From Tahibacter amnicola (GTDB lineage: Bacteria > Pseudomonadota > Gammaproteobacteria > Xanthomonadales > Rhodanobacteraceae): a stretch of 64,000 nt of DNA. The notes under the pieces were generated by a model that was not told where the DNA came from, made no database searches, and saw only the letters and a list, made by a program, of their open reading frames with translations. The position numbers were made by a program, and so were the translations under genes. The stretch is from the NCBI RefSeq assembly GCF_025398735.1, contig NZ_CP104694.1, positions 124,001 through 188,000 of the forward strand, in the 5' to 3' direction. Below are positions 9,385-50,843 of this stretch, in pieces (positions within the stretch are counted from its first letter, which is position 1; each line of letters starts with the position of its first letter).

Positions 9385-9405
9385 ACGTTCGGCCGGCGCG
9401 GTGTC

Positions 9406-10248: not shown

Positions 10249-10366
10249 GGGAGTGCCGTGGAGGATCGGACGGCAGAGGATAGCCCGCGTCGCCGGCGGC
10301 TCCAACGGCCGCACGCGCCGGACCCGAGGTGACGCGCGCCAGCCGATGGACCGGCCGCATTCACGC

Positions 10367-11584: not shown

Positions 11585-11587
11585 CGG

Positions 11588-30842: not shown

Positions 30843-30891
30843 CACGGGTGAACTCGCTGCAGCGAAGCTGGGGAAGAGAATGTGCGGGTGA

Positions 30892-31470
30892 TCATCGCAG
30901 CCGGACGTTCCAGAACCAGCCGGTTTCCGGCGCAATCTGCTTGCGCTGGCGCTCTTCCTTGCGCGTCAGATAAGCCTTGCCCTGCGGCTCGTCCATGGTG
31001 CGGTAGACATAGCCTTCGTTCAGCGCGACGGAATAGACGGGCCCTTCACGCACCGCTTCGGTCAGGTGATCGGTGAAACGGTAGGTCATCTCGTACGACT
31101 CACCCGGCGCCAGGTGATGAAAGGTGAACAGCGGTCCATCCGTCTCCCCGCTGTCCTCTCTGGGGGCGTACAACTTGCTGACATGATCCGAACCGGCGTA
31201 GACCGCGATACTGAATCGCGCCGCGGGATGGCCGTTGAGTTGCACCTCGATCGGCCGTGACGACACGTTCGTCAGCGTCTGCCGCACCGCAATGGCGATG
31301 GGTGGGTCATCCTTGGCGGCAGGATCGGCAGGAACCAGGCAGCTGGACGTCTTGAGCGTCTCCAGCAGCACCGTCTCGTGCGTCTGCAGGCAGCCGGCCG
31401 ACGACGTTGGTACATCCGCGGCGGCCAGCAGGGACGTGACCGCCATGACGAGCGATTGAGCGATAGTCAT
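30892..31470 (-). CDS. Secreted hypothetical protein
   Basis: This 192-residue protein has a short signal peptide (MTIAQSLVMAVTSLLAAADV) followed by two Cys (GCLQTHE, SSCLV) and one predicted beta-sandwich (AIAVRQTLTNVSSRPIEVQL, LAPGESYEMTYRF). The LTNVSSRPIEV and LAPGES strands resemble immunoglobulin-like inhibitor folds such as BsuPI, but the match is weak. Ten bases separate it from the Ig-like protein upstream and 49 from the DsbA-like gene downstream. Function unknown. Confidence 0.7.
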   Translation of the reverse strand: MTIAQSLVMAVTSLLAAADVPTSSAGCLQTHETVLLETLKTSSCLVPADPAAKDDPPIAIAVRQTLTNVSSRPIEVQLNGHPAARFSIAVYAGSDHVSKLYAPREDSGETDGPLFTFHHLAPGESYEMTYRFTDHLTEAVREGPVYSVALNEGYVYRTMDEPQGKAYLTRKEERQRKQIAPETGWFWNVRLR

Positions 31471-31480
31471 TGCGCAGCTC

Positions 31481-34400
31481 CTAGTTCGGGCACGAAGCAG
31501 CCGGACGGCTCACGGCCGGACAGCCATGCGTGACGCGCAGATAGTCGAGCAAGGTGAACGCGCCAGCCATCGCCCCCAGCGAGCAGCCGTAGAACGCATT
31601 TTCCGGCGTGTGATCACCGCTTCCGCCGATGGCGTTGCGTCGGGCGACCGTATCGTTCTGCAGCTCGATCTGCGCATTCTTGAACAGCACCTTGATGTGC
31701 TGCGCGTTCTTGGCCTGTTCCTTGGTCGGGAAGTGGTACATGTGCGCCTCCAGGGCATCGATCTTGCGCTTGAAGTCGGCCCAGCCGTGGCGCATGTAGT
31801 GCTTGAAGCGCGAATAGTGCTGATTCTCGTGCGCCAGCACCTCTTCCCACCGGTCATAGACCTTTCCGTCCGCACCAACATTCATGCCGGCCGCGTTCAT
31901 GGCGGCGACATCCGGATTGCCGGCGGGTCCGCCGGGGTAATGGCTCGAGGCAGAGCGACGCAGCTCGTACTCATCGTGGTTGTAGTGCGTGCAATAGCCA
32001 GCCGGCGTCGAGGCCGTGTGGCCGTTGATCATGGCATCGGTCAGCTCGACATAGGGAGCCGTTGCGGGGCGGATGATCGTTCCGGTGACTTCCGCCTTGG
32101 TCAGCTTGAACTTCCATTTGCCTTCCGGCGTGCAGTAGGGCTCGATGTCGAACTCCCAGTCCGCCGGATGTGCCGGTGCGGGGTTACCGAACTCGTAGCC
32201 ACTGAATTCCGCCTTATTGGGCGTTGCGCCGATCACGACGTTCGCATCCTTGAAGGTGATGTCGGTGACAACGCCTGTGACAGTTTCCGGGAAACGTGCC
32301 GGGTCCGGCCCGCAACTGCCATTGCCCTTGCAGCGCCGGCAGTAGTTGCTCGTGGTGCATTCCTTGCCGACCTTCGCGATGTTCACGGTGCAGGACGGAC
32401 ACTGCTGGCCCTGCGCCTGCGACTGCTGCTTGCATGGCCCACAGGGGCCGCATTGTCCGCCCCGGCAGCTTTCCGCGGGCGGATTGGTGCCGCAATTGGG
32501 TGGCGTTGGCGGCGGGCCGCCGCCCCAGCCGGCCTTGGTGATGCCTGAACCCGGATCACTGACGACACGCGTGCCGTCTTCGCTCACCGTTCCGCGCCCC
32601 ATCGGTACGAAGGTCGCCAGGTCGTGGTCCCACTGCACGATCGGCAGCGTCTCACCGGGCTTCATGCCGGCAAGATTGGGCATGGACACCTCTACCGGTG
32701 GATCAAATCGCGTGCCGGTGGGCTGAATCGTCCAGGCAATCGCACCGAAAGTGCCGAAGCCGCCCGGCGGCACCATGGGCAGGCGGTCGCCATTGACCGG
32801 CGTCACCACCAATGGGCCCGTGGTGGAACCATCCGGGAAGGTCACGCTGTGCGCCTTCACCCGCATCGCGAAGCCGTCGAGGCCGGGAATGGTCAGGGTC
32901 ACGTCGCTGTCGCCACCAACGATCTGCGCCTGGCCCAGGTTGATCGGCGGCAGGTAGATCGGGTGCGGCAACTGGTTCACCTGGCCCTGGATGACCGCCG
33001 TCTCGAAGTGCAGTCCCGGGTATTGCACGGTCTGCCCCCGACGGGTCTGGCGGATCGCCGTGCCGTCGACGAACAGGTCGATCTTGCCGGGCGGAACCTG
33101 GTCATCGAAGCGGAACCGGCCTTCCGCATTGCTCACGGTCGACAGGCTGGTGCGGCTGATGGAAAGGCGCACGCCGGGCAGCGGCGCGCCGGTGTGATCG
33201 AGCACCACGCCCGAGAAGGCCGTCGGGCCGTCCTTGCGTTCGAGCACCAGCAGCTGGAAATCCGCCGCGCCAAACGGTGCGCCGGCCACGATCGCCTGGG
33301 CACGCACATGCACATTCCCGGCGATAGCGCCGGTGATCGGGCGCACGCTGGCCATGCCGTTCTTGTCGGCCGTGACGGTGATCTGGCGGCCGTCCGCGCT
33401 GACGCTGCCGCCGGCCGCCGACTGCGCCGTGAAATGCGCATCGCCGTCTTCGATGGTGAACTGCACCGGGGTGCCGGTCATCGGATTGCGGTCCGCGTCG
33501 ATCACGACGGCCGACAGGGGTTCCACCGGCTGGCTGTGCGTCGACACGTACTGGCTGCCCGACAGGCCGCTGACCAGCACCCATGCCGGCGTACCGCGCA
33601 GCCCGGTGGCGGTGAACACGACATCTTCGGCCAGGTCCTCGCTCCAGGCGCGCACCATGTTTCCGGATTCCGCCGCCTCGGTGCCGAGCGTCAGCCAGAC
33701 TTTGGCCTGCCCGCTGGCATCGGTCCGCACGGCGATATTCCGGGCCGCGTTAACGCCGTCGGGCGTATCGGGCTGGGATTCAACCGTGCGGATCGTGCCG
33801 GCACCGCGCAGCACGTCGAAATGCACCGGCACGTCCGCCAGCGGCAGGCCATCCGCATCGATGGCAACGATGCGCAACGGCGCGCTCAGGGACTGCTTGA
33901 CGGGACCGGTCTGGCGGTCGCCCGACAGCAGGGTCAGGCGCCGCGAACCGGCGGCAATGCGCGTGACCGTCACCGCCTGGCTGCGCGCATTTCCGTGCAC
34001 GTCCGTGGCGGTCACGCTGACGGTGTTGCTGCCCACTTCCAGGGGGACGTTACGCGCGAGGTAGTAGCGATCGGCCACCGTCGCCGTCACCGTGTGGCCG
34101 TTGGCACTCACTTTCACCGCAGGCTCCGGCGCGTTGAGCCCGGCCTCCACCGCGTCGTTGACCACGCCACGCACGTCGATGCGCACGGCCGAGGTCACCG
34201 CGCCGGGCAGTGGTCCTTCGACGGTGAGCAGCGGTGCCGTCTGGTCGACGTAGACGGTGATCTGGGCCGTACCGGTGCGACCGTGGCTGTCCGTCGCGTT
34301 CGCACTGAGCAGGTTGGTGCCTTCGTGCAGGAAATACCGTTCGAAGGTGAAGCTGCGGCCGTCCGCGGACAGCTGCGCCTGCTGCTGGTTGATGGTCACG

Positions 34401-35569
34401 CCGGTCACCGGCTTGTTCAGCGTGCCGGTGATCGTGACCGGCCGCTGCACCGCACCGGTCAGGTCGGTGGAACCGCCCGGCGTCACGCCGCCGGTGGCCG
34501 CGACCGGTCCCAGCGCGGCCCAGTCCTGCGGGCTGGTGAAGGTCACGACGGGCGGGGCATCGTAGGTCAACGTGGTGGTGGTCGTCCGTGACTGGCCATC
34601 GGCGAACATTGCCACGGCGGTCAAGGTGTTCTCGCCGGGCTGCAGCATCACCTCGCCGTCGAATGGTCGTGGCTGCTCCAGGAACGAACCGACGGCCGTG
34701 GGCTGGTCGTTAAGGGTCACGGATACCGCATCGCTGCGATTGGAACCTGCCAGCAACCGCACCGGCACCTTCGGTTCGAGCACGGTGCTGCCGGGCGCCG
34801 GCTGCGCAAACTCCAGCGAGTACGACGGCGCGTCCTCGACGCGGAAGACCGTAGTGGCCCTGCGCACCGCACCGGCACGATTGGCGATCGACAGGTCCGC
34901 CGTGTGCTGGCCGGCTGGCAGCGGCGTGCCAGTGGTGTACTGGAGCGTGCCCTGGCCCGGCGTGGTCATCTGCACCGCCACCTGGGACGTGACCTCGGCA
35001 TCATCGAGTGACAGGCGGATGCTGTCCGGGTCGATCGGACTGCCGGCGTCGTCGAAGTGCGCGGTAATCACCGTGGGACTGCCGGCGGCCAGGCTGACAT
35101 TGGAGGGCGTGAACACCGCGATGCGTGGGCCTTCAACCGCACGGAAAGTCCAGCTGACACGCGCGGAACCGACCGTCAGCTCCGCCCGGTGTTCGCCGGC
35201 GGTCAACGGCTTGACGGAATCGCGTGCGATGGCCGACTCCGTGACGTGCGACTCGGGCGTGATGTTCATGCCATCCAGCCGCAACGTGACAGCGCCGGCA
35301 CCGGTGCCTGCCGGCAGCGTGTAGCGCGCACCGACGGAATAATGCTGCCCCGCGGACAGCACGGCGCCGTCGCGCGGCGTCAGGCTGTCCAGATCGATCG
35401 TGCCGGCGACGACAGGCTCGAACGTGCCCGCAAAAATCAGGTCATCGTCGAGCGCGCCGGCCCGTGCCGTCGGCGGCGGTGAGGCCGCGGCCGGACTTCG
35501 CGCGCCGGTTGCGGCAGCAGAAAGGCCCAGCGCAGCCGTCAGCAGAATGAGCTTAATGGACGTTTTCAT
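31481..35569 (-). CDS. Large secreted Ig-like protein with C-terminal HExxH metallopeptidase-like region
   Basis: The 1,362 residues begin with a signal peptide. From ~50 to ~530 there are repeated Ig-like strands. Two Big_1-like (invasin-type) domains follow (about 535-650 and 655-770), then one carboxypeptidase-regulatory domain (about 783-840, VVLDHTGAPLPGVRLSIS). A ZU5/GPI-like stretch continues with PVEVSMPNLAGMKPGETLP. A Cys-rich segment (about 1025-1090) has more than a dozen Cys in CxxC pairs (CGPCGPCKQQ, CRRCKGNGSC). The last ~200 residues carry LAHENQHYSRF, a perfect HExxH motif at ~1246-1250, with further His and Glu after it. The C-terminus is therefore a candidate zinc protease or toxin-like domain. 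Third gene after the giant in the same run. Confidence 0.85.
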   Translation of the reverse strand: MKTSIKLILLTAALGLSAAATGARSPAAASPPPTARAGALDDDLIFAGTFEPVVAGTIDLDSLTPRDGAVLSAGQHYSVGARYTLPAGTGAGAVTLRLDGMNITPESHVTESAIARDSVKPLTAGEHRAELTVGSARVSWTFRAVEGPRIAVFTPSNVSLAAGSPTVITAHFDDAGSPIDPDSIRLSLDDAEVTSQVAVQMTTPGQGTLQYTTGTPLPAGQHTADLSIANRAGAVRRATTVFRVEDAPSYSLEFAQPAPGSTVLEPKVPVRLLAGSNRSDAVSVTLNDQPTAVGSFLEQPRPFDGEVMLQPGENTLTAVAMFADGQSRTTTTTLTYDAPPVVTFTSPQDWAALGPVAATGGVTPGGSTDLTGAVQRPVTITGTLNKPVTGVTINQQQAQLSADGRSFTFERYFLHEGTNLLSANATDSHGRTGTAQITVYVDQTAPLLTVEGPLPGAVTSAVRIDVRGVVNDAVEAGLNAPEPAVKVSANGHTVTATVADRYYLARNVPLEVGSNTVSVTATDVHGNARSQAVTVTRIAAGSRRLTLLSGDRQTGPVKQSLSAPLRIVAIDADGLPLADVPVHFDVLRGAGTIRTVESQPDTPDGVNAARNIAVRTDASGQAKVWLTLGTEAAESGNMVRAWSEDLAEDVVFTATGLRGTPAWVLVSGLSGSQYVSTHSQPVEPLSAVVIDADRNPMTGTPVQFTIEDGDAHFTAQSAAGGSVSADGRQITVTADKNGMASVRPITGAIAGNVHVRAQAIVAGAPFGAADFQLLVLERKDGPTAFSGVVLDHTGAPLPGVRLSISRTSLSTVSNAEGRFRFDDQVPPGKIDLFVDGTAIRQTRRGQTVQYPGLHFETAVIQGQVNQLPHPIYLPPINLGQAQIVGGDSDVTLTIPGLDGFAMRVKAHSVTFPDGSTTGPLVVTPVNGDRLPMVPPGGFGTFGAIAWTIQPTGTRFDPPVEVSMPNLAGMKPGETLPIVQWDHDLATFVPMGRGTVSEDGTRVVSDPGSGITKAGWGGGPPPTPPNCGTNPPAESCRGGQCGPCGPCKQQSQAQGQQCPSCTVNIAKVGKECTTSNYCRRCKGNGSCGPDPARFPETVTGVVTDITFKDANVVIGATPNKAEFSGYEFGNPAPAHPADWEFDIEPYCTPEGKWKFKLTKAEVTGTIIRPATAPYVELTDAMINGHTASTPAGYCTHYNHDEYELRRSASSHYPGGPAGNPDVAAMNAAGMNVGADGKVYDRWEEVLAHENQHYSRFKHYMRHGWADFKRKIDALEAHMYHFPTKEQAKNAQHIKVLFKNAQIELQNDTVARRNAIGGSGDHTPENAFYGCSLGAMAGAFTLLDYLRVTHGCPAVSRPAASCPN

Positions 35570-37179: not shown

Positions 37180-37692
37180 TTACGGCGCCTGGCGCCGCGC
37201 CGCAGTGCGATGCGACAGCCAGTCGGACATCCGTACGGCCACATCGCCTGGTTGCTTGCGCAGTCCCAGCTCCTGCCAGGCCACCTTCGAACCGGCTTCC
37301 AGACCGATGATGGCCGGCGTTCCGGGAAGGTCGAGCCCTTCGAGCACCTTTGCGCTGCGGCCGGTGATCCAGCGGGCCTGTGGCAGCAGTGTCTTCTGCC
37401 CGGCCACCACCGTCGCTGACGCGGCATCGCCGACGACCAGCACGATGGCGTTGCGGCCCTCGTAACCGGCTTCGCGCAGGCTGTCTGCGAATGGCATGAG
37501 ATCTGGATCGTTGGCATCGAGCACGACCAGGATCCAGCGATCCTTGGGACGGATGTCGCCGGAGGATTCATTGACTGCGCGATCAGCCAGCGTCACCGGG
37601 TCGATGACCTGCCCGACCGGAACGCGGGCCGCAGCCGGGAGGAACGCGCTGCTTGCGAGGAGCAGCGCGGTGATAAACGTCCTGCTTGGCAT
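37180..37692 (-). CDS. Secreted thioredoxin-like protein lacking the CxxC pair
   Basis: The product has 170 residues with a signal peptide (ITALLLASSAFLPAAAR). The body fits a thioredoxin-like fold: strand WILVVLDANDPD, and a later GTPAIIGLEAGSKVAWQELG that matches the cis-proline strand and hairpin of thioredoxins. There is no Cys in the mature protein, so it cannot be a redox enzyme and may be a binding or chaperone variant. Its ATG overlaps the stop of the giant gene by one base (TGATG), which indicates translational coupling. Confidence 0.75.
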   Translation of the reverse strand: MPSRTFITALLLASSAFLPAAARVPVGQVIDPVTLADRAVNESSGDIRPKDRWILVVLDANDPDLMPFADSLREAGYEGRNAIVLVVGDAASATVVAGQKTLLPQARWITGRSAKVLEGLDLPGTPAIIGLEAGSKVAWQELGLRKQPGDVAVRMSDWLSHRTAARRQAP

Positions 37693-40600
37693 CAGTGCGT
37701 CACCGTGAAGTTTCGAATACTGGCCTTTTCGGCCGTGGAAAGACCGTCGAACAGGCCCGGCAGCGACTGGGCGGCGACCTGCTCCGCCACGTTCTGCACG
37801 TCGCCAGCGCCCTGCGGACCACGCACCACGACCACCGACAGGAAGCTGACGGTCTGGCCGGCCGGAACAGTCACCGTCCAGCCCCAGCTGACGTCCGGAT
37901 CGCCGCTGGCGAAGTGACGGGAGGTCGGCGCAAGCCCGTCCGCGCTACTCATGACATAGCCCGCTGCGCCCCTCGCGTCCGCGGCGGCCGGATCGTGCGC
38001 GCGCTGCACCGCGTAGCGGCCGCCGTTCGTATCCGGCGTCACCGCCAGGACACCCTGGGGATCGGCATAGCGGCCGACCAGGCGCACCGTCACGGTGACA
38101 TCCGACGCACCTTCGTTAGTGAAACTGTCGAGCTGGCGTACCAGGCCGAACTGCGTCGGTACGAAGGTCCGTCGTCCGACGCGCAGGCCGGACAGGCTGG
38201 CCGGCACCTGCTGCAGTTCACGGCCACCCTGCAGCTGGCGGGCCGCGGGTGCCGACGGGAAACGGCGACCGTCCACTTCCAGCCGCAGGGTCAGGTCGTC
38301 GAACGGATGGCTCCCGCCCGTCTCGGCCATCGCAAAGATCGAGGCATCGCCATGAACCTGGATGGTGTAGCCGGCGATCGTGTCCTGCAGGTAGATCGGC
38401 AGGAGCGCTGCGTTTCCAGCCTGCACGTCTTGCGTGGTCGTACCGCCGGGCACCGACAGCGTGTCGATCACACCCGTCGGTTCTTCCCAGCACGGCGCCT
38501 GCAGGGCCACCGGCCCCGGCGTCACTTCGGGGAAGGTGTACCGGCCCTGCGCATCCGTGTAACCGAAGAAGTAGCGGTAGTCGTAGCTGGCCGACGGGGC
38601 CGTCGACCACAGACGCACGCACGCGTTCGGAACCGTATCGCCCTGGGCGTTCTTCACGACGCCCGTAATGGCACCGGGTTGTCCCAGCTGCAGGTTCAGC
38701 GTCTGGGTCTGGCCCAGCGTGGTCAGCGTGATCACGTCGGACACGACATTCTGCGATTCCGGTGCGGTCGCCGTCACCACCACCTGGCCCAGCGGCAGGC
38801 GATTGAGCGTGTACTGGCCGTTCGAATCAGTCTGGGCGTGACGCTCGAACCCGGCATCGACATGGCTGGCGATGGTCGTTGCATGGGGCACGGGCTGGCC
38901 GCCCGCATCGGTCACCGTACCGCGGACGCCCGAGGTCGGCGCGAAGGTGAGATCCATCACCACCGGCGTCTGCACGTCCGTCAGCGTTCCGGTGGCGGTG
39001 ACGGTCATGCCGCTGTCGTTGTCCTGCGCACGCAACTCGAACGGACCCGGCGGGACGTCTTCCAGGCGATAGCTGCCCTGCCAGGAGGTTTGCGCATCGT
39101 AGGTCTGGCCCTGCGAATCGGTCAGCGTCACCGACGGATAGCTCGCCGCTTCGCCGTCGGCATGGCGCACCGTGCCCTTGACCACCGAGATGTCGAACAC
39201 GATGTGTTCGGCGTGGTCGCTGGTGACCGTGACGCTACGACGGCCGATCAGGTTGTTGGCACTGCCACCGCGCGTCTCGCCGGCCGGGCGCGCTCCCTGT
39301 CCCTGGTCGTAGACCGACAGCGTTGCCGGGCCCGCCGGCAGGCCATGGAAGCGGGCGGTGTGATCGCAGCGCAGATAGCGCGAGACCTCATAGGCACCCG
39401 TATCGCTCACGAGCTCGTGAACGCAGTAGTTCCACGTTTCCGCCTCGTCGGCAACACGGACGCGGGAAGTGACTGTGCCGCCCGCGATGTCGAATACCAG
39501 GTCAGCCAGCCGGTCGAGGTTGCCCTCGGCCAAGGTGACTTCAGCCGTTGCCGTGTGCTCGCCGTCCTGCGCATGGACCTGGGCAATCAGCGTGATGGCA
39601 ACGCCCGACGGCAGGTTTTCGATCCGATAGCTGCCATCGGCGGCCGATTCCGCATTGCGGTTCGTCGTGGCCCCGCTGGCGCTGTCATTGACGTAGCGCG
39701 CGACGATCTCCACGCCGCTGATGCCATCCCCCCAGTCATGACGGACCTTGCCGTGGACCGCACCGCGGGCCGGGAAGCGCAGGTCCCGCGTCGTCGTCTG
39801 GCCCGTAACCAGCGTCACCGTCTCGTTCACCATGACGTCGGTGACCGGATCGCTCACGCGCAGGCGGGCGTTCGCACCGCCCGGCAGGCGTTCGAAGCGG
39901 AAGGCGCCCTGCGCATCGGTGATCTGCGCCGACGCGAGCGATTCGCCGGTTTCCGGACGTTCGATGCGCACGTACGCATCCGGCACCGGTACCTGGGCCG
40001 CATCGTAGACGTGACCTTCGACGACCGTCGGACCAATGCGGATGGCGATATCCAGTGTCTGGCCGTCGGCCGGCTGCACGACGGCTTCGCCGGTCGACTG
40101 CCAGTCGTTCGGATCGCGCAACATGATCACGCCCGGCAGGTTGCTCACATAGGTGAATGTCGCCCGGCCTTCCTCGTTCGTGGAGCTCGACAGGTAGTGG
40201 CCCTGGGCGTTGGTCACCCCGTAAGACACCGACTGCGTGAATGGCGCGCCATCGACACGCAGGGCGCGCAGATTGACCGTCGTGTACGCCGGCAGGATCA
40301 GGTCCTGCTGCCAGGTGGTACCCGGGCTGACGGCACCCGTCAGCTGTACCTGCCCATTGACACCCGGCTCTTCAAGCGCCGTCAGGCGGACGCTGGTGGA
40401 GGGCACATTGTCGAACGCGAAGCTGCCGTCAGCGGCCGAGATCCGCTGCACGTGCAGGACCGGCGAGGTCTGCGTGCGCAGGCGCACCTTCACGCCCGGC
40501 TGCGGCGTGACCGAATCCGGACGCAGCACGCGCCCGTGCACGCTGCCGGCGTTCGGGTACGCACCGGGCGGCGACACCGCGCCGTTGCGTGTGGTGCGCA

Positions 40601-43600
40601 GCCGATAGCCGCTGTCGTAGCAGCCGAAATCTCGTGAAGTGACCGCAATCACGTAGGCGCCGCTGTTGGTCGCGCTGATGTTGGCCAGGTCGCCGATCAG
40701 GTTGACCGGATCACCCGTGTAGGCATAGCCACGCGCAATGATGCTGCCAAAGGGCGAATACACATCCACCTGGATATTGCAGCGCGCCTGTGAGTTGCCC
40801 ACTGGCGCACTGTTGATCCGCACACCGAGGTGGTCGCCCGCCGAGGCGGTAACGGCATACAGGTGGCTTTCTGTGTAGAACGACAGCTCACTGGCGACGC
40901 TGTTCTCGGCGCTGATGGCGATCGTCTGTTCGACAGTCTGGGCATCGTCGGCCGGTCGTATCGCCACCGTGCCGGTACCGATCAGCAGCTGCGGCGTTTC
41001 CACGCGCAGCTCGTAGCTGCCTTCCGGCATGGCGGGGAATTGCCCCCAGCCATCCGTGCCAGTGTCGACGTAACCGCGCCACTCGGCCGTGCCCGACGGG
41101 CGATAGCGCACGTTGGCGTCGGCAATCGGCGTATTGCCGGCGTCCGCGTCCACCACGCGCACGCGCAACAGCGCGCTGGCCTTGAGGATGGCGGTCAGGC
41201 TACCCAGTTCACCATCGTTCTGGACCGCGCCGTCGGTCACCGATTCGGCGCTGCTTTCCGGGTGGCGGGCGTGGATCTGGTACGGCCCCACGGCCAGCTG
41301 CACGGTGAGCGTGCCGTTGCCGTTGGTCGTGCCCAGGTAGAGGCGACCGTCGATCGTCGGCGAGGTCGCCCAGAGCGAAACGTTTGGTGCGATGGCGCCG
41401 CGTGCATAGCGCGTGGTGATCGTCACCGTGCCCAGTCCCGGCATCGCCAGGTCGCGCGAGGCCGTCTGGCTGGCCGTGACGGTCACCGGCGCCGAAACCC
41501 TCGATCCTGAGCGCGGATCGGTGGTCGAGACGGTATAGGTGCCCGCCGGCACGGCCGACAGCAGGTAGTTGCCCTGGCCGTCGGTGAAGCCGGCACGGGT
41601 CACGCCGCTGCCCGCCAGTTCGACCCACTGGTTCGGCAGCGCAGCGCCGGTGCCCGTGGTCAGGCGGCCGGACACCGCGCCGTTGGCTGGCAAGGTGACC
41701 ACCTGGGTCGTGCTCTGGCCTGCATTGACGGTGACCGAAGCCACCTCGGCCTCAAACGTCGAGCCGTACTGGATCGCGAATGCGACCTCCAGGCGATAAC
41801 TGCCCGGATCCAGGCCACCGATGACGTAGGAGCCGTCCGGATTGATCAGTGCCGAACTGCGTCGCTGCGAACCCACGTAGGCTTCCACACTGCCCGCGTA
41901 CGGCGGGTTGTAGCGGAAGGCGCCGATCACGGTGCCGCGGATGGTGCCGCCGGCGAAGACCAGGTCACGCGTGGCACTGGTGGTACCCGCATCGAAGGTC
42001 GCCTCGGCGACCGCGATCACGCCCGAACGCGGATGGTAGGCACGCAGCTCCACCGGCGCGTCGACCGGAATGGCGATGCTCTGGCTGTCGTCACGCAACA
42101 CGCCGGCCAGGCGGTAGACGCCCGTGGCATCCGTGTACAGGCCCGCTTCACTGCGGTAGCGGTAGCCGAACAGCGGATGACGGCTGTGCACCTCGACGCT
42201 GGCGTTTTCCACCAGCGTGGTGCCGTCACCTTCCAGGACGCGGCCGGAAATCTCGCCCGTGAGCGCCGGCAACGGCGGCAGCGTGCTCTGTCCGTCGGCC
42301 GGAACGGCGAAGTTGGCGACGGCGTCGAGCAGCGACACATCCAGGCCTTCCAGCGCTTCCGGCGGCAACTGCCGCAGGCGTTCGGCCGAGGCCCGCGCGC
42401 CGTTCGCGCTGAGCTGGTTGGCAGCAAAGTGAAGCAGGGCGACACGCTGACCCGCCGGCACGGTGACCGAGGGCCATCTGGCCACGGCCACATTGGTACC
42501 CAGGCTGCTGTCGTAGTGGTATCCCAGTTCCGGAGCCGCCAGGCGTGCGCCCGACGCCCAGGGCACCAGGCTCTGGGTGTGGATCTCCTCGCCCATGGCG
42601 CCCGACAGCGACAACCAGATATCGGACGGCGTGCCGGCGGCGTTGATCTGGTCGTCGCCGCTGCTCGTATCCACCACGCGCCGGCCGTTCGCCGACGTCT
42701 CCAGCGTCACGCCTACGGTGATCGGATTCGTGCCGCGGTTTTCCAGGATTTCCACATAGCGCGCAAAGTAACCATTGCGCGGCACGTAGACCATGCGGGT
42801 GACATCCAGCCCGGCCAGCGGCGTTTCCTGGTGCACGGTCACCTGGCGTTCGCCCAGCGACTGCACGGCCGTCGCCGCGCCGGTGAAAGCAACACCGGAG
42901 ATCTCAAGGCGCGGCAACGCAGCGCCGCCCGCATCTTCGTCGGTGTCGTAGTAGCTGCGATTGGCGTCGTAGAAGGACACCGGCAACGCCACCAGCGAGC
43001 GACGCAGGTCGAGCGTGACCGGACGCGTCTGCAGGTCATCCGGAGCCGCGACCGTACCGCTGGCCTGCGCCTCGCGCGTCAGGTTGCCCTGGCGGATCGT
43101 GGCGCGCACGGTGTAGCTGCCTTCCACCACCGGATCGGCGGTGATTCGCCCCTGCGCATTGGTCACGCCGATGTCGCGGCGTCCCAGTGCATCCTCGATC
43201 GCCACCGTCGCACCCGCCACGGCGACACCGCCGTTTTCGCCATCCACCACGGTGACGGCGAGTTTCGCCGCCGCCATCAGGCGGATCGTATGCGCGTCCT
43301 GCTGGCCGCCGGCGGCGATGCTGCCGGTGACGGTGCGGTCCATGCCCGCCGCGTTCGGATAGCGCGGATCACGCACCCGCAGGCGGTAGCTGCCCTCGGG
43401 GATATTGGCGACCGTGACACGGCCGTCGACATCGGTGCGGCCGGCGACTTCCTCCGGATCCGTCCCCGGCGTGAGGTAGACGTAGGCATCGATCATCGGC
43501 GCACCGCCGGCGCGCGTGACCGTGACGTTGGCCGATCCCACCGCCAGCAGCGTGACCGGCACGGTGACCGGGGTGGCGCCGATGGTGACCGGCACCGTAC

Positions 43601-46600
43601 GGCGTCCGCCCGACACCGGATCGACCGCCGTCAGCATGTACTCGCCCTGCGGCACTGCCACGAAGCGGTAGCGCCCCAGGCTGTCGGTGAGGACCTCGCG
43701 CTCCACCACGCGCTTGCCCTTGTGTTTCGGCAAGGCCGCGGGCGAGCAGCCCGTGGCGCACTGGTCATAGACCTGGCCTTCGGCCGCACCGCGCAAGGTC
43801 AGTCGTGCATTGCGCGACGGTTCCGCGTTGGAGGTGATGACCGCGCCGTCTAGCGTGCCGGTGGGCTGCACGTCAATGTCCGCCGTCCAGATGTCACCGA
43901 CGGTGACGCGGACCGCGGCGCGCGAGCCACGCAGGCCGCCGTCGTTCAGCGTGGGGTTCGGGGCGCGCGTGTCGAACAGGAAGTCGTACTCGCCGGCGGG
44001 CAGGCCGGCGTAGACAAACGTGGCGTCGCTGGCGATCGGCACGTACACCGGTTCATAGGCGTCCGGATCGTCGATCGAGCGATAGACGCGGCCGCTGGTG
44101 ATCGAATGGTTGCCGTCACCAACCGCCCTGCCGGTGATGATGCCGGTGTCGTAGATCACATTCTGCGTCGCCGTCACGGGCACGTTCACCACCCGCGAGG
44201 GATAGCGCGTGAACGGATGGCCCGCGTAGTAGCCGTAGCACGGCCGCGCACGCTGCGCCGTCAGGGTGATATCCACGCCCTCGGGCAACGCGATGGAATC
44301 GGCCGCCGTGAGCTGGCCCTGCAGCACGAAGCTGCCCAGCGGCGGCGGGTTCTGCGTACCGCCGGCAACCGTCGCCACGCTGACCAGAGTACCGACCGGT
44401 GTACCACGCGGACACCAGGGATTCGGATCACCGTTCATGCCCCACACGCGGTTGAACAGCGGGTGGTCGGATTGCACCGTGACAGAGGCGCGAAGCACCG
44501 GCGTGCGCACATCGCCCTCGTAGGCGACGCCACGCACGGAAGCGGTGAGCGACGGCAACGGCTCAATCGGGCTGGAAAGATCGGCCGGGACCGGGAAGTT
44601 GCGCACGGTCGCGGCTTCCGCGCCGGTCAGGTCGGTCAGCACTTCCGGCGGCAATGCCACCAGGCGCTCGGCCGCCGCGCGGATACCACGGCGATTGATC
44701 TGCTGCGCCACGAAGTGCATCAGCGTGACACGCCCGCCCGCCGGCACCACGAGGGCATTCCAGCGCTGGGTCAGCACCGGCTTGCCGGCGTTGGTCACGA
44801 CATTCACCGAGTCCGGCGGCGCCGTTGCACCCGACGCACTGGCAAACACATGCGTCACCGGTGCCATCTGGTCCGGATCAATCGCAATATCGTCATCGAC
44901 GGTATCGTCGACGATCACCCACTGGTCTGCGGCCGTCACGGCCGTGTCACCCGACGAGGTCGTCAGCACGCCGCCGCCGGCGAACTGGGTGGCCAGGCTC
45001 ACGTCGACGGTGATGGGCGCAGCCGAAGGGTTGTCGAACACTTCCAGGTAGCGCGCGAAATGCGCACCGCGCGGCACGTAGATGCGTCGCGTGACATTCA
45101 GGCCGGCGACCAGCGTCGGCTGGGTAATCGCAAACTGACGGCGCGTCGCCTCCAGGCGCGCGCTGCTGTCGCCCGTGTAGGCCTGGTCGTTGATCGACAA
45201 CGTCACGCCGCCGTTGCTGAACACGCCACTGCCGGTCGCCAGCTGGCCAGACTTCTGCACGTCGAAGACGAAACGGTTGGCGTCGTGCAGCGTTGCGGGC
45301 AACGCGATGCGGTTGTCGAGCAGGGTGAGGTTGAGTTCGACTTCCTCGCCATCGCTCTCGATGCTGAATTCGGCGTCGGCGAAACGATCCTGCTGCGCGT
45401 CATAGGCGGTGAAGACATAGCCACCCACCGGCAGCCCGCCAACCCGGAAATTGCCCGTGTTGGTGGTGTTGCCGCTGCGCGAACCGCCACCCGTGCCGCG
45501 GATCTGCGTCACGGTGAACGGGAAGCCGCCTGCCAGGGTGGAGCCATCCGGGCGCACGATCTTGCCATGCACGGTGCCCGCCGGGCCGAGCGTCAGGGTG
45601 ATCTCCACCGGCTGGCCACTCTGCGTGACGTTCACCGTACCGTGTCCGTGCAGCACGCTGCCGCTGAATTCCGGATGCGCCGCAGTGATCTCGTAGGTGC
45701 CCTGGGCGACCTGGAAGCGCGCCACGCCGTTGGTATCGGTGCGTGCAGTGCCGTAGCCGGGCACGTAGACCGGCGCCCCTGCCGCCGCGCCGCCACGTGC
45801 GTACTGCACGTTGACCGTGATCGCGCCGAAGCCGCGCAGGGTGATGTTCGCGGGCGTGTCGACGTCAACGGAAACGCTCGCATCCGCCCAGCCTTCGGCG
45901 TGCGAAATGGCATCGCGCGCCACCACGCGGTGCGGGCCGAGGGGCAGGTCGTACAGGCGGTAGCGTCCCGCCGTGTCGGTGACGGTCGCGCGCTGCACGC
46001 CGCCGTTGCCGTTCGCGCCCATGTGCAGCTCGACACGTGCATTCACCACGACCTGGCCATCCGAATCACGCACGATGCCGGAAATCGAGCCGGTCTCCTC
46101 CATGAAGACATCCTGCGTCCACGTGTCACCTGCGGTCACGGTGGCGGTGGCGCGGCCGAGGATGGCGCGGCCGCCGCCCGATCCCTGTGGATGCGGAAAA
46201 TCGGCGAAGAGGAAGTAGTCGCGCGGCGTGATGCCGGTCATGAGGTAGCGGCCACCCTCCGCGCTCTGGGCGTAATTGTCCGGATTGGGCAGCTGGTCGG
46301 TACAGGTAAAGCGGTCGTCCAGGCGGCACAGACGGACGCGGGCGCCGTCGAGCGGCGATCCGTTGTGACGTTTTACAATACCGCGCACATTACCCTTGGA
46401 TACAAAGATGAGGTCCTGCTGCTCGTGGACCTGGCCCGCGTCGAAATCGCCCGGCGTCAACGCCGTGGCGGCGCCGCTGCGCGGATGCGTGGCGATGAGC
46501 TCGAACGCATAGACCGGAATGACGTAGTTGTTGATCGTACCGTCCAGCGTCGAACGGTACTCGAAGGCCCCATCCGGGTTTGTGGTGGCGAAGCGATGGC

Positions 46601-49600
46601 GCGTGAACAGCGGGTGCAGGCTCTTGAACTGGACGCGCGCACCCGGCACCGGCGTTGTGCCGTCGCCCGAGAGAACGCGGCCACTGACCTTGCCGGCATC
46701 CAGGTTGGGCAGCGGCGCGACGCTGGAGGTTTCCGGCACCGCGAAGTTGGCGATGGCCTGGCGCTCGTCGGTGGTGAGGTCGTCGATCGCTTCCGGCGGA
46801 AGCTGCGACAGACGCATCGCCGCCTCGCGCGCCGCCTGGCGGTCCAGCTGGTTGAACGCAAAGTGCATCAGTGAAACCTGGCCGCCAGCCGGAACGGTGA
46901 TATCGCTCCAGGTATAGCTGAGGCGTCCGGTCGGCCCGATCAGTTCGTAACCGGCGCTGCTGACACGCTGCGCGGCGCCGGTGCCATCGAACAGATGGCC
47001 GGTTGCGGCGATCGAGCCGGTGGCAAACGGGTCGGCGTCCTGCTGGTCATCGACGACGACCCAGCGGTCCGGCGCTGCCGCATTGCTGACGGACAACACC
47101 TGGTCGCCGTCGGAGCTGTCGACGACGCGCGGATTCGCGTTCGACGAGCGGTGATGCGAGCGCACCCGCACCTTGACCGTGATCGGCTGGTCGGAGTCGT
47201 TGCGCAGCACTTCGATGTAGCGCGTGAAGTAGCCGGCGCGTGGCGTGTAGATGCGTCGCGTGACAAACAGGCCCGAGGGCGTGGCGTCGTCCACTTCGAC
47301 CATCTGGCCGTTCTGGCTGACGCGTCCGATCGTGCCGTTGCCGTTGGTGAACGGCACTTCGGCATCGTTGCTGCCGATGATCGAAAGCCGCATGCCGGCG
47401 TTATCCGGCGCCGGGGCGCCGAAGATGCCCAGGTGGCCGTTGCCGATCGCGCCATTGCCGGTGATGTCGAACGGGAAACCGTTGGCGTCGTAGTAGGTCT
47501 GCGGCATCGTCACGGCGCTGTCGACCAGCACCATGTTCACCTCGACCACATCGCCATCCGAATCCACGCGATCGGCCGCCTCCGCGCGCAGCGTGCGCGT
47601 GGCATTCTCCGCCGTGATGGTGAAGTTGCCGGGCGGGGCATCGTCGATGCGGTAGTTACCCTGCGCATCGGTAATGCGATCGTAAGTCGTGCGGCGGTTG
47701 CAGGTGACATTCGCGCCGTAGACCGGGTCCGGATTGGTCATCCGCACCTCGATGCCCGCCATGGGCTGACCCTGCGCATTGGTCACCTGGCCGAAAACGC
47801 GGCCCTGGCCAATCAGCTGGATGTTCGCCACCGCCTCGGGCTCGGTCGCCGAAACGGTCACCGCGGTGGCGCGGCCGCGCACGCGGTCGATCGCGGGACA
47901 GGCAAGCGGGTTGTAGAAATTCACCGCATCAACCGTGTAGCTGCCCGCTTCGACGGAGTTGAAGCTGTAGTCGCCGTTCGCATCCGTGACGGTGACGAAG
48001 GCGTTGGCGAAGGGCTCAGGCAGCATGCGCACGACCATCCCCGCGCCCACGGGCGTGACGCCGTCGGGACGCAGCACCTTGCCGCGGACACGACCGATCG
48101 GCAGCGCCTGCAGGGTGATTTCCACCGACTTCACGTCGCCCGGCAGCAGCGTGCCACTGGCCGATCCGCTCAGGGCGCCGACCGGCGCCGGCTTGCTCGC
48201 GCTGATGCTGTAGTCACCGGCGAACACGCGCGGGAACACGGCGTTGCCATTGGCATCGGAAGTGACTTCCGTGCTGGTGGGGAACGGACTGCTCGTGCTG
48301 ACCGTGACGCGTGCGCCGGCCACCGGGGCCGATTGCGCATCCACCAGGTGCACACGCAGTTCGCCCTGGCCGACCAGGCGCACGTCGAGGTTGCGCGTTT
48401 CGCCGGCGGTGGCCAGGCGCGTGGTGGCCACGCCCTTGTCGCCCGTTTCGATCGCTTCGGCCGCGACCACGACATTGCCCATTGGCACCAGCTCGAACAC
48501 GTAGGATTCGCCGGCATCGAACTCACGCGTGGCGAAGGCCACGCCGTTGGCCTGCAGACTGACACGCGTCGCGCCGCTGACCGCTCCGCCGTCGCGCTGG
48601 ATCACCCGGCCGCGGACGGTGCCGCTGGCCGCCAGGCGCACGTCGAGCATGATCGATTCGCCTTCATTGTTCAGGCGGCCGGAATTGGTGCCGGCCAGAT
48701 GCGTGGTCGGATTCACTGCAACGACGGAGATATCGCCGACGAAGACGCCATCGATCGCGTAGCGGCCCTGTGCATCCGTCTGCACGGTGCGTTCGGCATC
48801 AAACGCGCCGCGCGTGATCACCTTGACCGGCACGTCGGCCTGGATCGCACCGGCCGAATCGCGCACCGTGCCGTTGACCGTCCCCTTGGCCAGGAAGACC
48901 ACGCGCGATTCCAGCGGCTGGCTCGGATCCAGGTTGACGATGACCACCTGGCTGCGCCCGCGCTCCAGCGCCTGCTCGGCCTGGACGTAGTAGGTATCGG
49001 GCGCCGGCACGCGGAAACCGAACCGACCATTCTCATCGGTCGTCGTGCGCAGGATGCCGCTGCCCGGCGTGGGCGAATACAGGGGTTCGTAGCTGTAATG
49101 CACGCCACGACTGCGCGGCGCGAGGTAGACGGTGATGCCGGCGCCAACCGGCGTCTGGCCGTCGCGCTGGTAGACCGTGCCGACCAGGGTGTTGTCGGCG
49201 AGGATGACATCCAGCGGGACCGTATCGCCGTCGTTCTGCACGACACCGCGCGCACGGCCGCTGCGGCCTTCCGGGGTAACGGCGGTCAATTCGAAGTCGC
49301 CGACCGGAACAGCCGGCAGCACGAACTTGCCGGTGGTGTCGGTGCGGGCGTCGAAGGTCAGGCGCAGTCCGACCAGCGACTGCATCGTGACGCGCGCGTT
49401 CGCGTAGACCGCTCCGGCCGGATCCTTGACGTAGCCCGTGACGGTGCCGACCGGGCCGAGAATGATATTGCGCGGTACGGTCTGGTTCGGCTGCGAAATC
49501 ACGATGCCGGGCACGCGGGCGCGCAGGCGGCCGTCCACGAAGGCATCGAGCGTGAACGGACCATCGGAAATCGGCAGGGTGTCAAAGCGGAACGCGCCAT

Positions 49601-50843
49601 CGGCGGCGGTGACGCTCTGGGTCAGGATGCCGCGTTCGCGGCTGAGGATGCGGACCTGCACGCCCTCGCGCAGCACGGTGCCGCCCACGTCATAGACGAC
49701 GCCCTCGATCTGGCCCACGGGCTGCAACGTGAGGGTTACAGCCTGGGTCTGGCCGATCGCCAGCTTGCCGACGGCGGCGCCGATCAGGCGGGTCGCCGGA
49801 TCGCGCGTGGAAACCGTGAAATCACCGGCCGGCACCGCGGTGAAACTGGTCACGCCCTGGGCCGACGTCGCCTGGGTGCGCACGTCGCGGTTGCCGCCCA
49901 GCGCCGTGAAGGTGACCTGGGCATCGGCCACCGGCGCGTCGGTCGGCCCGACGACGGTGACGTTGACGGTGCCCTGTCCGTTCAGGCGCAGAGTGACGTC
50001 GGCTGTCTGCCCCTCGTTCTCGATGCGCGCCGAACCCAGCGCGCGATCACCCGTGGCTGGATCGATTGCCGAAATCAGGAAATTGCCCGCGCTGACATCG
50101 TCCAGCGAAAAGGCGCCGGAGAGATTCGTGACCGCCGTACCGCCCTGCTCCATCGGCTGCAGACGCAGCACCGAGACCTGCGCGCCGGCGACAGTCGTGC
50201 CGTCAGCGCGCTGCACCTGGCCGGTCAGCCGGCCGCGCGGTCCGAGGATGTACATGAAGGTGGACGACACGCCGCCTTCGGTGACCGCTCCCGCGACCAC
50301 GCGGGCGGAGGATCCGCTGGCAAACTGGGGATAGATCCGGATCAGGCCATCGTCAGTCACCGTGGCCATCAGGGCATTGGACACCGAATACACGGTGCCG
50401 GCGCTGCGCAGGGTCGCATCGTGCGAAGAGCCGTCAGCGCCGACCGCCATCAGCTTCAGCTGGGAAGTGTCGCCGGTCGTCAGATAGCGCGTCGGGGCCG
50501 ACAAGGTCGCCGCGATCGGCACCGGATCAATATGACCAAAGGTGATGGGGCCCAGCTCGATCGTCGCCGGCTGGAACGGGTTGGTGAACCCGGCCTCGCT
50601 CTGCCCGACCGACCCATCCGAACAGGTGACGCGGGCGCGGATGGCGCCCAGGTTCCCGGGAATGCCGAAGACGGTATAGGTGCCGTCCGGCGCTAACGGC
50701 GCGTTGCGGTTGCCCGCCGTGACGACGCACGAGGCACCGGCCGGCGGGACGCCGACGGACTGTGCGGTGGCAGAAACGGCCGAAATGGCCAGCACGATCC
50801 CGGCGAATGCGCGAAGCATCCGCCGCCCAAGAGTGTTAGTCAT
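37692..50843 (-). CDS. Giant secreted repetitive beta-sandwich protein (~4,383 aa)
   Basis: ATG 50843 (MTNTLGRRMLRAFAG, AGGG 8 bases upstream) gives a signal peptide ending near ATAQS; the frame stays open for 13.1 kb. Most of the protein is a string of ~70-95-residue carboxypeptidase-regulatory/Cna-B-like domains of pattern GxVxxxxGxPVxGAxV...TDAxGxYxxxxxPxGxYxxxA. Four copies of another ~240-residue module (about residues 1110-1370, 1845-2085, 2617-2848 and the C-terminus 4145-4383) interrupt them. Its hallmarks are YDAN near the start, TRRIYxPRxGxFxRYxEV, SSGD, VPAGGxVxLMHF and LPPExLxxLTxxExxxxxNFxVP. The first three are each followed by a domain with HPLF. There are few Cys, no LPXTG and no barrel, so it is released or held non-covalently. 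Likely an adhesin or matrix scaffold; function inferred only. Confidence 0.9.
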   Translation of the reverse strand: MTNTLGRRMLRAFAGIVLAISAVSATAQSVGVPPAGASCVVTAGNRNAPLAPDGTYTVFGIPGNLGAIRARVTCSDGSVGQSEAGFTNPFQPATIELGPITFGHIDPVPIAATLSAPTRYLTTGDTSQLKLMAVGADGSSHDATLRSAGTVYSVSNALMATVTDDGLIRIYPQFASGSSARVVAGAVTEGGVSSTFMYILGPRGRLTGQVQRADGTTVAGAQVSVLRLQPMEQGGTAVTNLSGAFSLDDVSAGNFLISAIDPATGDRALGSARIENEGQTADVTLRLNGQGTVNVTVVGPTDAPVADAQVTFTALGGNRDVRTQATSAQGVTSFTAVPAGDFTVSTRDPATRLIGAAVGKLAIGQTQAVTLTLQPVGQIEGVVYDVGGTVLREGVQVRILSRERGILTQSVTAADGAFRFDTLPISDGPFTLDAFVDGRLRARVPGIVISQPNQTVPRNIILGPVGTVTGYVKDPAGAVYANARVTMQSLVGLRLTFDARTDTTGKFVLPAVPVGDFELTAVTPEGRSGRARGVVQNDGDTVPLDVILADNTLVGTVYQRDGQTPVGAGITVYLAPRSRGVHYSYEPLYSPTPGSGILRTTTDENGRFGFRVPAPDTYYVQAEQALERGRSQVVIVNLDPSQPLESRVVFLAKGTVNGTVRDSAGAIQADVPVKVITRGAFDAERTVQTDAQGRYAIDGVFVGDISVVAVNPTTHLAGTNSGRLNNEGESIMLDVRLAASGTVRGRVIQRDGGAVSGATRVSLQANGVAFATREFDAGESYVFELVPMGNVVVAAEAIETGDKGVATTRLATAGETRNLDVRLVGQGELRVHLVDAQSAPVAGARVTVSTSSPFPTSTEVTSDANGNAVFPRVFAGDYSISASKPAPVGALSGSASGTLLPGDVKSVEITLQALPIGRVRGKVLRPDGVTPVGAGMVVRMLPEPFANAFVTVTDANGDYSFNSVEAGSYTVDAVNFYNPLACPAIDRVRGRATAVTVSATEPEAVANIQLIGQGRVFGQVTNAQGQPMAGIEVRMTNPDPVYGANVTCNRRTTYDRITDAQGNYRIDDAPPGNFTITAENATRTLRAEAADRVDSDGDVVEVNMVLVDSAVTMPQTYYDANGFPFDITGNGAIGNGHLGIFGAPAPDNAGMRLSIIGSNDAEVPFTNGNGTIGRVSQNGQMVEVDDATPSGLFVTRRIYTPRAGYFTRYIEVLRNDSDQPITVKVRVRSHHRSSNANPRVVDSSDGDQVLSVSNAAAPDRWVVVDDQQDADPFATGSIAATGHLFDGTGAAQRVSSAGYELIGPTGRLSYTWSDITVPAGGQVSLMHFAFNQLDRQAAREAAMRLSQLPPEAIDDLTTDERQAIANFAVPETSSVAPLPNLDAGKVSGRVLSGDGTTPVPGARVQFKSLHPLFTRHRFATTNPDGAFEYRSTLDGTINNYVIPVYAFELIATHPRSGAATALTPGDFDAGQVHEQQDLIFVSKGNVRGIVKRHNGSPLDGARVRLCRLDDRFTCTDQLPNPDNYAQSAEGGRYLMTGITPRDYFLFADFPHPQGSGGGRAILGRATATVTAGDTWTQDVFMEETGSISGIVRDSDGQVVVNARVELHMGANGNGGVQRATVTDTAGRYRLYDLPLGPHRVVARDAISHAEGWADASVSVDVDTPANITLRGFGAITVNVQYARGGAAAGAPVYVPGYGTARTDTNGVARFQVAQGTYEITAAHPEFSGSVLHGHGTVNVTQSGQPVEITLTLGPAGTVHGKIVRPDGSTLAGGFPFTVTQIRGTGGGSRSGNTTNTGNFRVGGLPVGGYVFTAYDAQQDRFADAEFSIESDGEEVELNLTLLDNRIALPATLHDANRFVFDVQKSGQLATGSGVFSNGGVTLSINDQAYTGDSSARLEATRRQFAITQPTLVAGLNVTRRIYVPRGAHFARYLEVFDNPSAAPITVDVSLATQFAGGGVLTTSSGDTAVTAADQWVIVDDTVDDDIAIDPDQMAPVTHVFASASGATAPPDSVNVVTNAGKPVLTQRWNALVVPAGGRVTLMHFVAQQINRRGIRAAAERLVALPPEVLTDLTGAEAATVRNFPVPADLSSPIEPLPSLTASVRGVAYEGDVRTPVLRASVTVQSDHPLFNRVWGMNGDPNPWCPRGTPVGTLVSVATVAGGTQNPPPLGSFVLQGQLTAADSIALPEGVDITLTAQRARPCYGYYAGHPFTRYPSRVVNVPVTATQNVIYDTGIITGRAVGDGNHSITSGRVYRSIDDPDAYEPVYVPIASDATFVYAGLPAGEYDFLFDTRAPNPTLNDGGLRGSRAAVRVTVGDIWTADIDVQPTGTLDGAVITSNAEPSRNARLTLRGAAEGQVYDQCATGCSPAALPKHKGKRVVEREVLTDSLGRYRFVAVPQGEYMLTAVDPVSGGRRTVPVTIGATPVTVPVTLLAVGSANVTVTRAGGAPMIDAYVYLTPGTDPEEVAGRTDVDGRVTVANIPEGSYRLRVRDPRYPNAAGMDRTVTGSIAAGGQQDAHTIRLMAAAKLAVTVVDGENGGVAVAGATVAIEDALGRRDIGVTNAQGRITADPVVEGSYTVRATIRQGNLTREAQASGTVAAPDDLQTRPVTLDLRRSLVALPVSFYDANRSYYDTDEDAGGAALPRLEISGVAFTGAATAVQSLGERQVTVHQETPLAGLDVTRMVYVPRNGYFARYVEILENRGTNPITVGVTLETSANGRRVVDTSSGDDQINAAGTPSDIWLSLSGAMGEEIHTQSLVPWASGARLAAPELGYHYDSSLGTNVAVARWPSVTVPAGQRVALLHFAANQLSANGARASAERLRQLPPEALEGLDVSLLDAVANFAVPADGQSTLPPLPALTGEISGRVLEGDGTTLVENASVEVHSRHPLFGYRYRSEAGLYTDATGVYRLAGVLRDDSQSIAIPVDAPVELRAYHPRSGVIAVAEATFDAGTTSATRDLVFAGGTIRGTVIGAFRYNPPYAGSVEAYVGSQRRSSALINPDGSYVIGGLDPGSYRLEVAFAIQYGSTFEAEVASVTVNAGQSTTQVVTLPANGAVSGRLTTGTGAALPNQWVELAGSGVTRAGFTDGQGNYLLSAVPAGTYTVSTTDPRSGSRVSAPVTVTASQTASRDLAMPGLGTVTITTRYARGAIAPNVSLWATSPTIDGRLYLGTTNGNGTLTVQLAVGPYQIHARHPESSAESVTDGAVQNDGELGSLTAILKASALLRVRVVDADAGNTPIADANVRYRPSGTAEWRGYVDTGTDGWGQFPAMPEGSYELRVETPQLLIGTGTVAIRPADDAQTVEQTIAISAENSVASELSFYTESHLYAVTASAGDHLGVRINSAPVGNSQARCNIQVDVYSPFGSIIARGYAYTGDPVNLIGDLANISATNSGAYVIAVTSRDFGCYDSGYRLRTTRNGAVSPPGAYPNAGSVHGRVLRPDSVTPQPGVKVRLRTQTSPVLHVQRISAADGSFAFDNVPSTSVRLTALEEPGVNGQVQLTGAVSPGTTWQQDLILPAYTTVNLRALRVDGAPFTQSVSYGVTNAQGHYLSSSTNEEGRATFTYVSNLPGVIMLRDPNDWQSTGEAVVQPADGQTLDIAIRIGPTVVEGHVYDAAQVPVPDAYVRIERPETGESLASAQITDAQGAFRFERLPGGANARLRVSDPVTDVMVNETVTLVTGQTTTRDLRFPARGAVHGKVRHDWGDGISGVEIVARYVNDSASGATTNRNAESAADGSYRIENLPSGVAITLIAQVHAQDGEHTATAEVTLAEGNLDRLADLVFDIAGGTVTSRVRVADEAETWNYCVHELVSDTGAYEVSRYLRCDHTARFHGLPAGPATLSVYDQGQGARPAGETRGGSANNLIGRRSVTVTSDHAEHIVFDISVVKGTVRHADGEAASYPSVTLTDSQGQTYDAQTSWQGSYRLEDVPPGPFELRAQDNDSGMTVTATGTLTDVQTPVVMDLTFAPTSGVRGTVTDAGGQPVPHATTIASHVDAGFERHAQTDSNGQYTLNRLPLGQVVVTATAPESQNVVSDVITLTTLGQTQTLNLQLGQPGAITGVVKNAQGDTVPNACVRLWSTAPSASYDYRYFFGYTDAQGRYTFPEVTPGPVALQAPCWEEPTGVIDTLSVPGGTTTQDVQAGNAALLPIYLQDTIAGYTIQVHGDASIFAMAETGGSHPFDDLTLRLEVDGRRFPSAPAARQLQGGRELQQVPASLSGLRVGRRTFVPTQFGLVRQLDSFTNEGASDVTVTVRLVGRYADPQGVLAVTPDTNGGRYAVQRAHDPAAADARGAAGYVMSSADGLAPTSRHFASGDPDVSWGWTVTVPAGQTVSFLSVVVVRGPQGAGDVQNVAEQVAAQSLPGLFDGLSTAEKASIRNFTVTH
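37695..38410 (-). repeat. Giant protein: interrupting module, C-terminal copy
   Basis: Begins LLPIYLQDTIAGYTIQV, with core RRTFVPTQFGLVRQLDSFTN and VTVPAGQTVSFLSVVVV, and ends LFDGLSTAEKASIRNFTVTH at the stop codon. The protein therefore ends exactly at the module boundary. Confidence 0.7.
40570..40905 (-). repeat. Giant protein: module position with a replaced body (PPC-like)
   Basis: At about residue 3314, where a fourth module would be expected, the head strand is still recognisable (ELSFYTESHLYAV against PVSFYDANRSYYD). The body is a different, shorter beta-sandwich with two Cys (RCNIQVDV, RDFGCYDSGYRL) that resembles bacterial pre-peptidase C-terminal domains. Confidence 0.5.
42298..42995 (-). 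repeat. Giant protein: interrupting module copy 3
   Basis: Begins VALPVSFYDANRSYYD, with core TRMVYVPRNGYFARYVEILE and end LPPEALEGLDVSLLDAVANF. It is followed by a sandwich containing SRHPLFGY. Confidence 0.75.
44585..45310 (-). repeat. Giant protein: interrupting module copy 2
   Basis: Begins IALPATLHDANRFVFD, with core TRRIYVPRGAHFARYLEVFD and end LPPEVLTDLTGAEAATVRNF. It is followed by a sandwich containing SDHPLFNR. Confidence 0.75.
46735..47515 (-). repeat. Giant protein: interrupting module copy 1
   Basis: Begins at VTMPQTYYDANGFPFD, with core TRRIYTPRAGYFTRYIEVLR and end LPPEAIDDLTTDERQAIANF. The similarity to the other copies is at protein level, not as tandem DNA. Confidence 0.75.

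Follow-up and report, generated by a model that had tools for sequence, protein, structure and literature searches.

Giant1 to Giant5 of Apilactobacillus kunkeei are, according to the abstract of the work describing them, extracellular surface proteins of thousands of residues with positional homologues in relatives (PMC12863079), and the hallmark of polymorphic toxins, in the part of their description that concerns us, is a conserved N-terminal part followed by variable C-terminal tips (PMC3482391). The locus described here lies in a 64,000-nucleotide stretch of the genome of Tahibacter amnicola (contig NZ_CP104694.1, positions 124,001 to 188,000), referred to as the window, within which all coordinates below are given. 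A single open frame on its minus strand (37692-50843), free of internal stops and singled out in a preliminary description of this DNA, encodes a giant protein of 4,383 residues (4,393 if the frame is extended 10 codons upstream to a GTG), in which a module of ~245 residues recurs four times among tandem Cna-like domains. No paper on this protein family was found by searching titles and the beginnings of abstracts, most subscription papers lying outside the library searched.

The modules M1 (about residues 1105-1372; 46728..47531), M2 (1841-2086; 44586..45323), M3 (2616-2848; 42300..42998) and M4 (4140-4381, or 4140-4383 when drawn to the protein end; 37695..38426), all encoded on the minus strand, are mutually homologous. 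M1-M3 share 39 to 44% identity in pairwise comparisons with Smith-Waterman z-scores of 50 to 62, and M4, a diverged C-terminal copy, scores 12 to 15 against them (200 shuffles each). Leave-one-out hidden Markov models (HMMs) recovered M1 to M4 with E = 9e-53, 1e-65, 7e-55 and 7e-17, respectively. The four copies of ~240 residues described previously are thereby borne out, and so are the spacings of 735 and 772 residues between successive module heads (YDAN or HDAN) and the coincidence of the protein end with a module boundary, M4 being the very C-terminus. No model covers the module in Pfam (best stray E 0.014) or in NCBIfam (best stray E 0.022) in any of the 18 copies scanned, and the curated GH15, GH65 and GH94 models gave no Pfam match at E<=1 in these 18 copies. 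Assignment of the module to a family of PDB sequences was considered on account of seven rows at E 0.92 to 0.95 and rejected, these rows being absent from a later search. The module defines a domain family that has no model in the curated libraries searched here, with a predicted fold.

The predicted structure of M2, the one copy modelled (pLDDT 91.5), has a galactose-mutarotase-like supersandwich topology, and the fold of the module is predicted to be the beta-supersandwich found in GH15/GH94-type enzymes and mutarotases. The earlier statement that the module matches no named domain therefore holds at the level of sequence (Pfam and NCBIfam), but not for the predicted fold, which is a known one. 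Compared to domain N2 of the GH15 dextran dextrinase (PDB code: 9ju0) and to glucodextranase (PDB code: 1ug9), the module has 9% sequence identity, lacks a Pfam match, occurs up to four times per chain and is not followed by an (alpha/alpha)6 catalytic barrel, none being present after any module, where Cna-like domains or the protein end stand instead. A carbohydrate-enzyme fold would thus be reused, minus its catalytic barrel, as a repeated building block. The rhamnogalacturonan lyase of polysaccharide lyase family 4 (PL4; PDB code: 2xhn) differs in being a single-copy enzyme, while the module of the giant protein is repeated. The PL4 supersandwich has a catalytic lysine and a catalytic histidine, neither of which has an invariant counterpart among the 18 module copies. 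Across these copies no histidine, lysine, tyrosine or acid is invariant, the sole invariant polar residues being R81, R93, N100 and N244 (M2 numbering), and H205 is kept in 16 of the 18.

An acidic DDxxDxD loop, a possible calcium site, sets the 10 internal copies that are of the M1/M2 type apart from the other eight in alignment A2, M3 and the C-terminal copies included, all of which lack it; a regular expression in a script recognized it in eight of the 10, and that of M1 of the window and that of the first copy in the Acidobacteria locus L010 were read by eye.

The super-repeat had been called five-fold, but has four copies only, the fifth site being occupied by a different domain, a PPC-like sandwich (residues 3318-3425; 40569..40892, minus strand). 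Its sole family match in Pfam is to PPC (PF04151; E 0.036, 15.4 bits, below the cut-off of 25.9), a model that matches two of five fifth-site members at E<=1. Interpretation of the site as a worn module was discarded (Smith-Waterman z -0.7 to 0.8, profile-profile probability 0.9%). A PPC-like domain stands at the matching place in nine of the ten other giant-type frames examined, eight of them from other genomes (G001, G004, G039, G050, L009, L010, L011 and L012, in our handles for genomes and loci) and one being the paralogue in the own genome (G000); it was not found in the tenth, L013, a fragment open at both ends. The preliminary description had rightly recognized a PPC-like sandwich near residue 3314, but took it for a replacement of a module body behind a surviving head strand. 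The site is, however, common to the relatives examined, where it begins with a GVLxFxGER-like stretch lacking the module head strand, so that the resemblance of SELSFYTES in the window to LPVSFYDAN looks accidental. Since the site has no similarity to the module and is PPC-like in relatives as well, the protein contains four modules and, at the fifth site, a constant domain of another kind.

The giant protein begins with a signal-peptide-like stretch (residues 1-28; 50760..50843), read from sequence alone, and an N-terminal domain (29-203; 50235..50759) with a cysteine pair (39/74) and 68% and 71% identity to its counterparts in G050 and G039, respectively. These are followed by ten Cna-like (CarboxypepD_reg) domains (204-1097; 47553..50234; self-derived HMM and Pfam PF13620), M1, five Cna-like domains of unit 1 (1378-1838; 45330..46712), M2, five of unit 2 (2092-2610; 43014..44570), the first two of which were missed by the HMM and placed by hand from the domain order, M3, five of unit 3 (2857-3310; 40914..42275), the PPC-like sandwich, about eight further Cna-like domains (3433-4116; 38496..40547), one of them matched partially, and M4; all are encoded on the minus strand. 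Cna-B-like tandem repeats are evident from PF13620, which matches 28 stretches of the protein (E 5e-170), and the self-built profile finds 31, two of them short. The repeat unit consists of one module and five Cna-like domains. HPLF, at residues 1410, 2127 and 2889, does follow the first three modules as noted before, but it marks the first Cna-like domain of each unit and not a separate domain. When units 1-3 are compared using hand-set boundaries, the best match of a Cna-like domain is the one with the same rank in the other unit in 22 of 30 comparisons, most strongly for the first and third and weakly for the fifth, as would be expected had entire units been duplicated.

The relatives strengthen the case for a genuine super-repeat built on an unnamed domain, a whole unit being present in some and absent from others and positional identity being largely kept across genera. 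The long form, of about 4,400 residues with four modules, is found in the window, G039 and G050, and the short form, of about 3,650 residues with three modules, in G001, L009, L011 (Methyloversatilis) and L012; according to the alignment, the short forms lack M3, a module exclusive to the long form, and almost all of the five domains that go with it. A second giant-type region, with three modules and with the giant read in two overlapping frames, lies at 2.88 Mb in the own genome (6.46 Mb, one contig). In a module tree of 41 rows (midpoint root for drawing only; matches in G003, G044, G091, G235, G353, G715 and contig 39 of G050 are outside it), M1, M3 and M4 each form one starred group across genera, and M2 is divided between two starred groups that may or may not join, that of the near relatives and that of L009, L011 and L012. 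Because modules group largely by position across genera, their order predates the divergence of the proteobacterial genera covered. The window protein is about 70% identical to those of G050 and G039 in the N-terminal domain, and this value drops to 30-35% in M4.

Module matches occur in 8 of 61 relatives' genomes, in at least 5 of 274 genomes of the class sample and in at least 2 of 398 of the phylum sample (the own genome included each time), as well as in 3 of 10 genomes of the family of G039; these cross-genome counts are lower bounds, module scoring having covered at most nine (class) or six (phylum) candidates per genome. In the collection of named genomes six module loci were verified, and matches were present in 4 of 72,556 plasmid records and in 0 of 50,697 phage records. 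Single modules occur in secreted-looking proteins of 417 and 799 residues (G022), 463 residues (G039) and 801 residues (G268), in an S8 peptidase of Skermanella, in which we read RTX-like repeats, and in a short protein of Jannaschia. Given these single copies in secreted-looking proteins, the module serves secreted proteins as an accessory domain, and of the uses seen the giant is the most elaborate. In two families, a TPR-sulfatase and a sulfotransferase gene (by Pfam in L045, by look in L046) adjoin the gene of a protein (L045:5420-12825 and L046:7282-12070) that looks secreted, carries one module and ends in a hydrophobic stretch with arginine, and a further match lies within an open frame of 13,624 residues (L032/L048, contig 219 of G213).

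The 16 cysteines of the window protein form eight successive pairs, 4 to 66 residues apart, at positions 39/74, 982/1048, 1506/1514, 2144/2202, 2362/2366, 3355/3408, 3807/3826 and 4075/4118. Among seven full-length proteins, cysteine columns of the mature part are gained and lost pairwise, if shifts of one or two columns are allowed, and a few cysteines lie before or within the signal-like starts. Lysine content is 0.3 to 1.1% (28 of 4,383 residues in the window protein). Gram-positive pilins and adhesins have an intradomain Lys-Asn isopeptide bond in most domains and an LPXTG-type anchor. Lysines are too scarce here for such bonds, and intradomain disulfides may take their place; identity as an isopeptide pilin was rejected in view of the lysine count and of the chain ending at M4.

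Downstream of the giant gene, and overlapping its stop by one base (TGATG), a gene (37180..37692, minus strand) encodes a secreted-looking protein of 170 residues without cysteine or Pfam match, which on our reading of the alignment is thioredoxin-like. Relatives follow the giant in the second locus of G000 and in G001, G050, L009, L011 and L012 (BLASTP) and in L010 and L050 (alignment alone), none being found in G039. On our reading, the aligned part of these relatives contains no CxxC; the two CxxC hits, of L009 and L050, lie in an N-terminal extension or signal.

A secreted protein of 1,362 residues (31481..35569, minus strand) resembles polymorphic toxins, with a conserved Ig/glucodextranase-B/CarboxypepD region and a variable C-terminal tip containing HENQH. 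In its family the conserved region extends up to about 1,000 residues, and the tips diverge after a common GSGITKAGW-like end: those of the window, G001 and G039 have HENQH, HERLH or HESLH, a tip of G039 has HELGH and weakly matches matrixin (E 0.024), and the copy in the second locus of the own genome (2.888-2.897 Mb), which is divided between two frames, continues into RHS repeats and includes what we take to be a HINT-like part. The remaining tips gave no informative match. A toxin-like gene is found beside or a few genes from the giant, upstream or downstream, in all eight proteobacterial loci with flanking sequence (the window and its own paralogue included). Close relatives (E below 1e-200) are present in five of the six giant-bearing genomes, the own one counted, and in none of 55 without; the one exception, G003, is a draft of 87% completeness in 830 contigs.

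Between the thioredoxin-like and toxin-like genes lies that of a secreted-looking protein of 523 residues (35579-37150, minus strand), without significant Pfam match or relative in the fetched loci. The toxin-like gene is followed on the same strand by those of a 192-residue protein (30892..31470), immunity-like by position only, a DsbA/thioredoxin_4-type protein (30252..30935; Pfam E 7e-19) and an ankyrin-repeat protein with a signal-peptide-like start, which recurs beside the giant gene (29653..30255). In G001, five tandem relatives of the 192-residue gene behind the toxin-like gene (L044, about 8390-11998) look like an immunity array. A PAP2-type protein (28349-29656, minus strand) is encoded in this gene row in G001 and G050 as well.

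On the basis of the repeated supersandwich/spacer build and the toxin-like neighbour, the giant is probably a long extracellular stalk holding sugars or other cells. We propose, giving it an even chance, that it is a secreted, rod-like protein with glycan-binding supersandwich nodes on a disulfide-stapled extracellular rod, acting beside the toxin-like protein. Some thirty-odd Cna-like domains would form the rod, single domains of which would be stapled by disulfides, and globular nodes would be set at fixed intervals, with the fold that in GH15-type enzymes stands ahead of the catalytic barrel, here without one. Anchoring or secretion would be the likely task of the conserved N-terminal domain, and the diverged M4 would probably be exposed as the tip. 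Rather than acting as enzymes, the nodes most probably bind glycans or hold partners. The rod may fold in the periplasm with help from the DsbA-type protein and from the pseudo-thioredoxin encoded next to the giant, and the toxin-like protein may act where the rod does, at the cell surface, serving attachment to other cells or their antagonism.

Several observations weigh against this proposal. The fold model comes from M2 alone; a common fold reveals no function, and supersandwiches serve as enzymes too. The module also exists apart from any rod, both on its own and, in one case, in a peptidase. Positional identity is not strict, the two internal modules of L010 grouping together beside M1. 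In comparisons with L009, L011 and L012 the N-terminal domain has 41-45% identity, below M1 and M2 at 44-52%, which weakens the argument for an anchor, and no outer-membrane export route or anchor was identified for the giant. L009 and L011 have a vicinal cysteine pair, which does not resemble an ordinary disulfide. The short flanks of L010 yielded no toxin-like gene, and distant toxin-like relatives occur without a giant, two weak ones among 61 genomes and others in at least 9 of 274 class genomes (four at E about 1e-88 and five weak, with at most three candidates per genome scored).

It is possible, albeit rather unlikely, that the giant is an adhesin or matrix protein only, its modules and Cna-like domains being mechanical spacers and its toxin-like neighbour an accident of an island of secreted proteins. 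The occurrence of the toxin-like family without the giant agrees with this, but the linkage recurs in eight loci in either gene order, and the modules largely keep their positional identity, M1 and M2 being among the best-conserved parts, beyond what spacers need. That the giant is a display or delivery stalk carrying the polymorphic-toxin-like protein as an interbacterial weapon is suggested by the operon-like linkage of the two genes, by the restriction, among the 61 genomes compared, of the closest toxin-like relatives to genomes with a giant and by the variation of the tips; we deem it unlikely, as neither a docking domain nor a known export pair was found, the toxicity of the tips is only putative, and distant relatives occur without the giant. 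Quite unlikely, in our view, is the more far-reaching idea of a new Gram-negative extracellular apparatus, in which a non-catalytic GH15-type N-domain, freed from its barrel, would provide the repeated sugar-binding nodes of a very long disulfide-stapled rod, aided in folding by a dedicated pseudo-thioredoxin, that presents or aims a polymorphic effector from the same operon. It is improbable that the giant is a scaffold lined with enzymes, its modules acting as polysaccharide lyases, epimerases or mutarotases, with just R81, R93, N100 and N244 invariant among polar residues and even H205 missing from two copies.

The proposed glycan-binding rod resembles the giants of A. kunkeei in its thousands of residues, in its probable extracellular location and in its positional homologues in relatives; however, Giant1-4, which belong to lactic acid bacteria, have an N-terminal beta-solenoid domain, unlike the giant of the window, and the abstract of that work mentions no supersandwich node of the kind predicted here (PMC12863079). 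The giant itself is not a polymorphic toxin, the giants in the portion of the toxin work used here being multi-toxin proteins of actinobacteria, but its 1,362-residue neighbour is like polymorphic toxins in having a conserved N-terminal part and variable tips (HExxH-like, RHS and others) (PMC3482391). The recurring linkage of such a toxin-like gene to the giant opens a concrete test of the part played by a long surface stalk in bacterial interactions.
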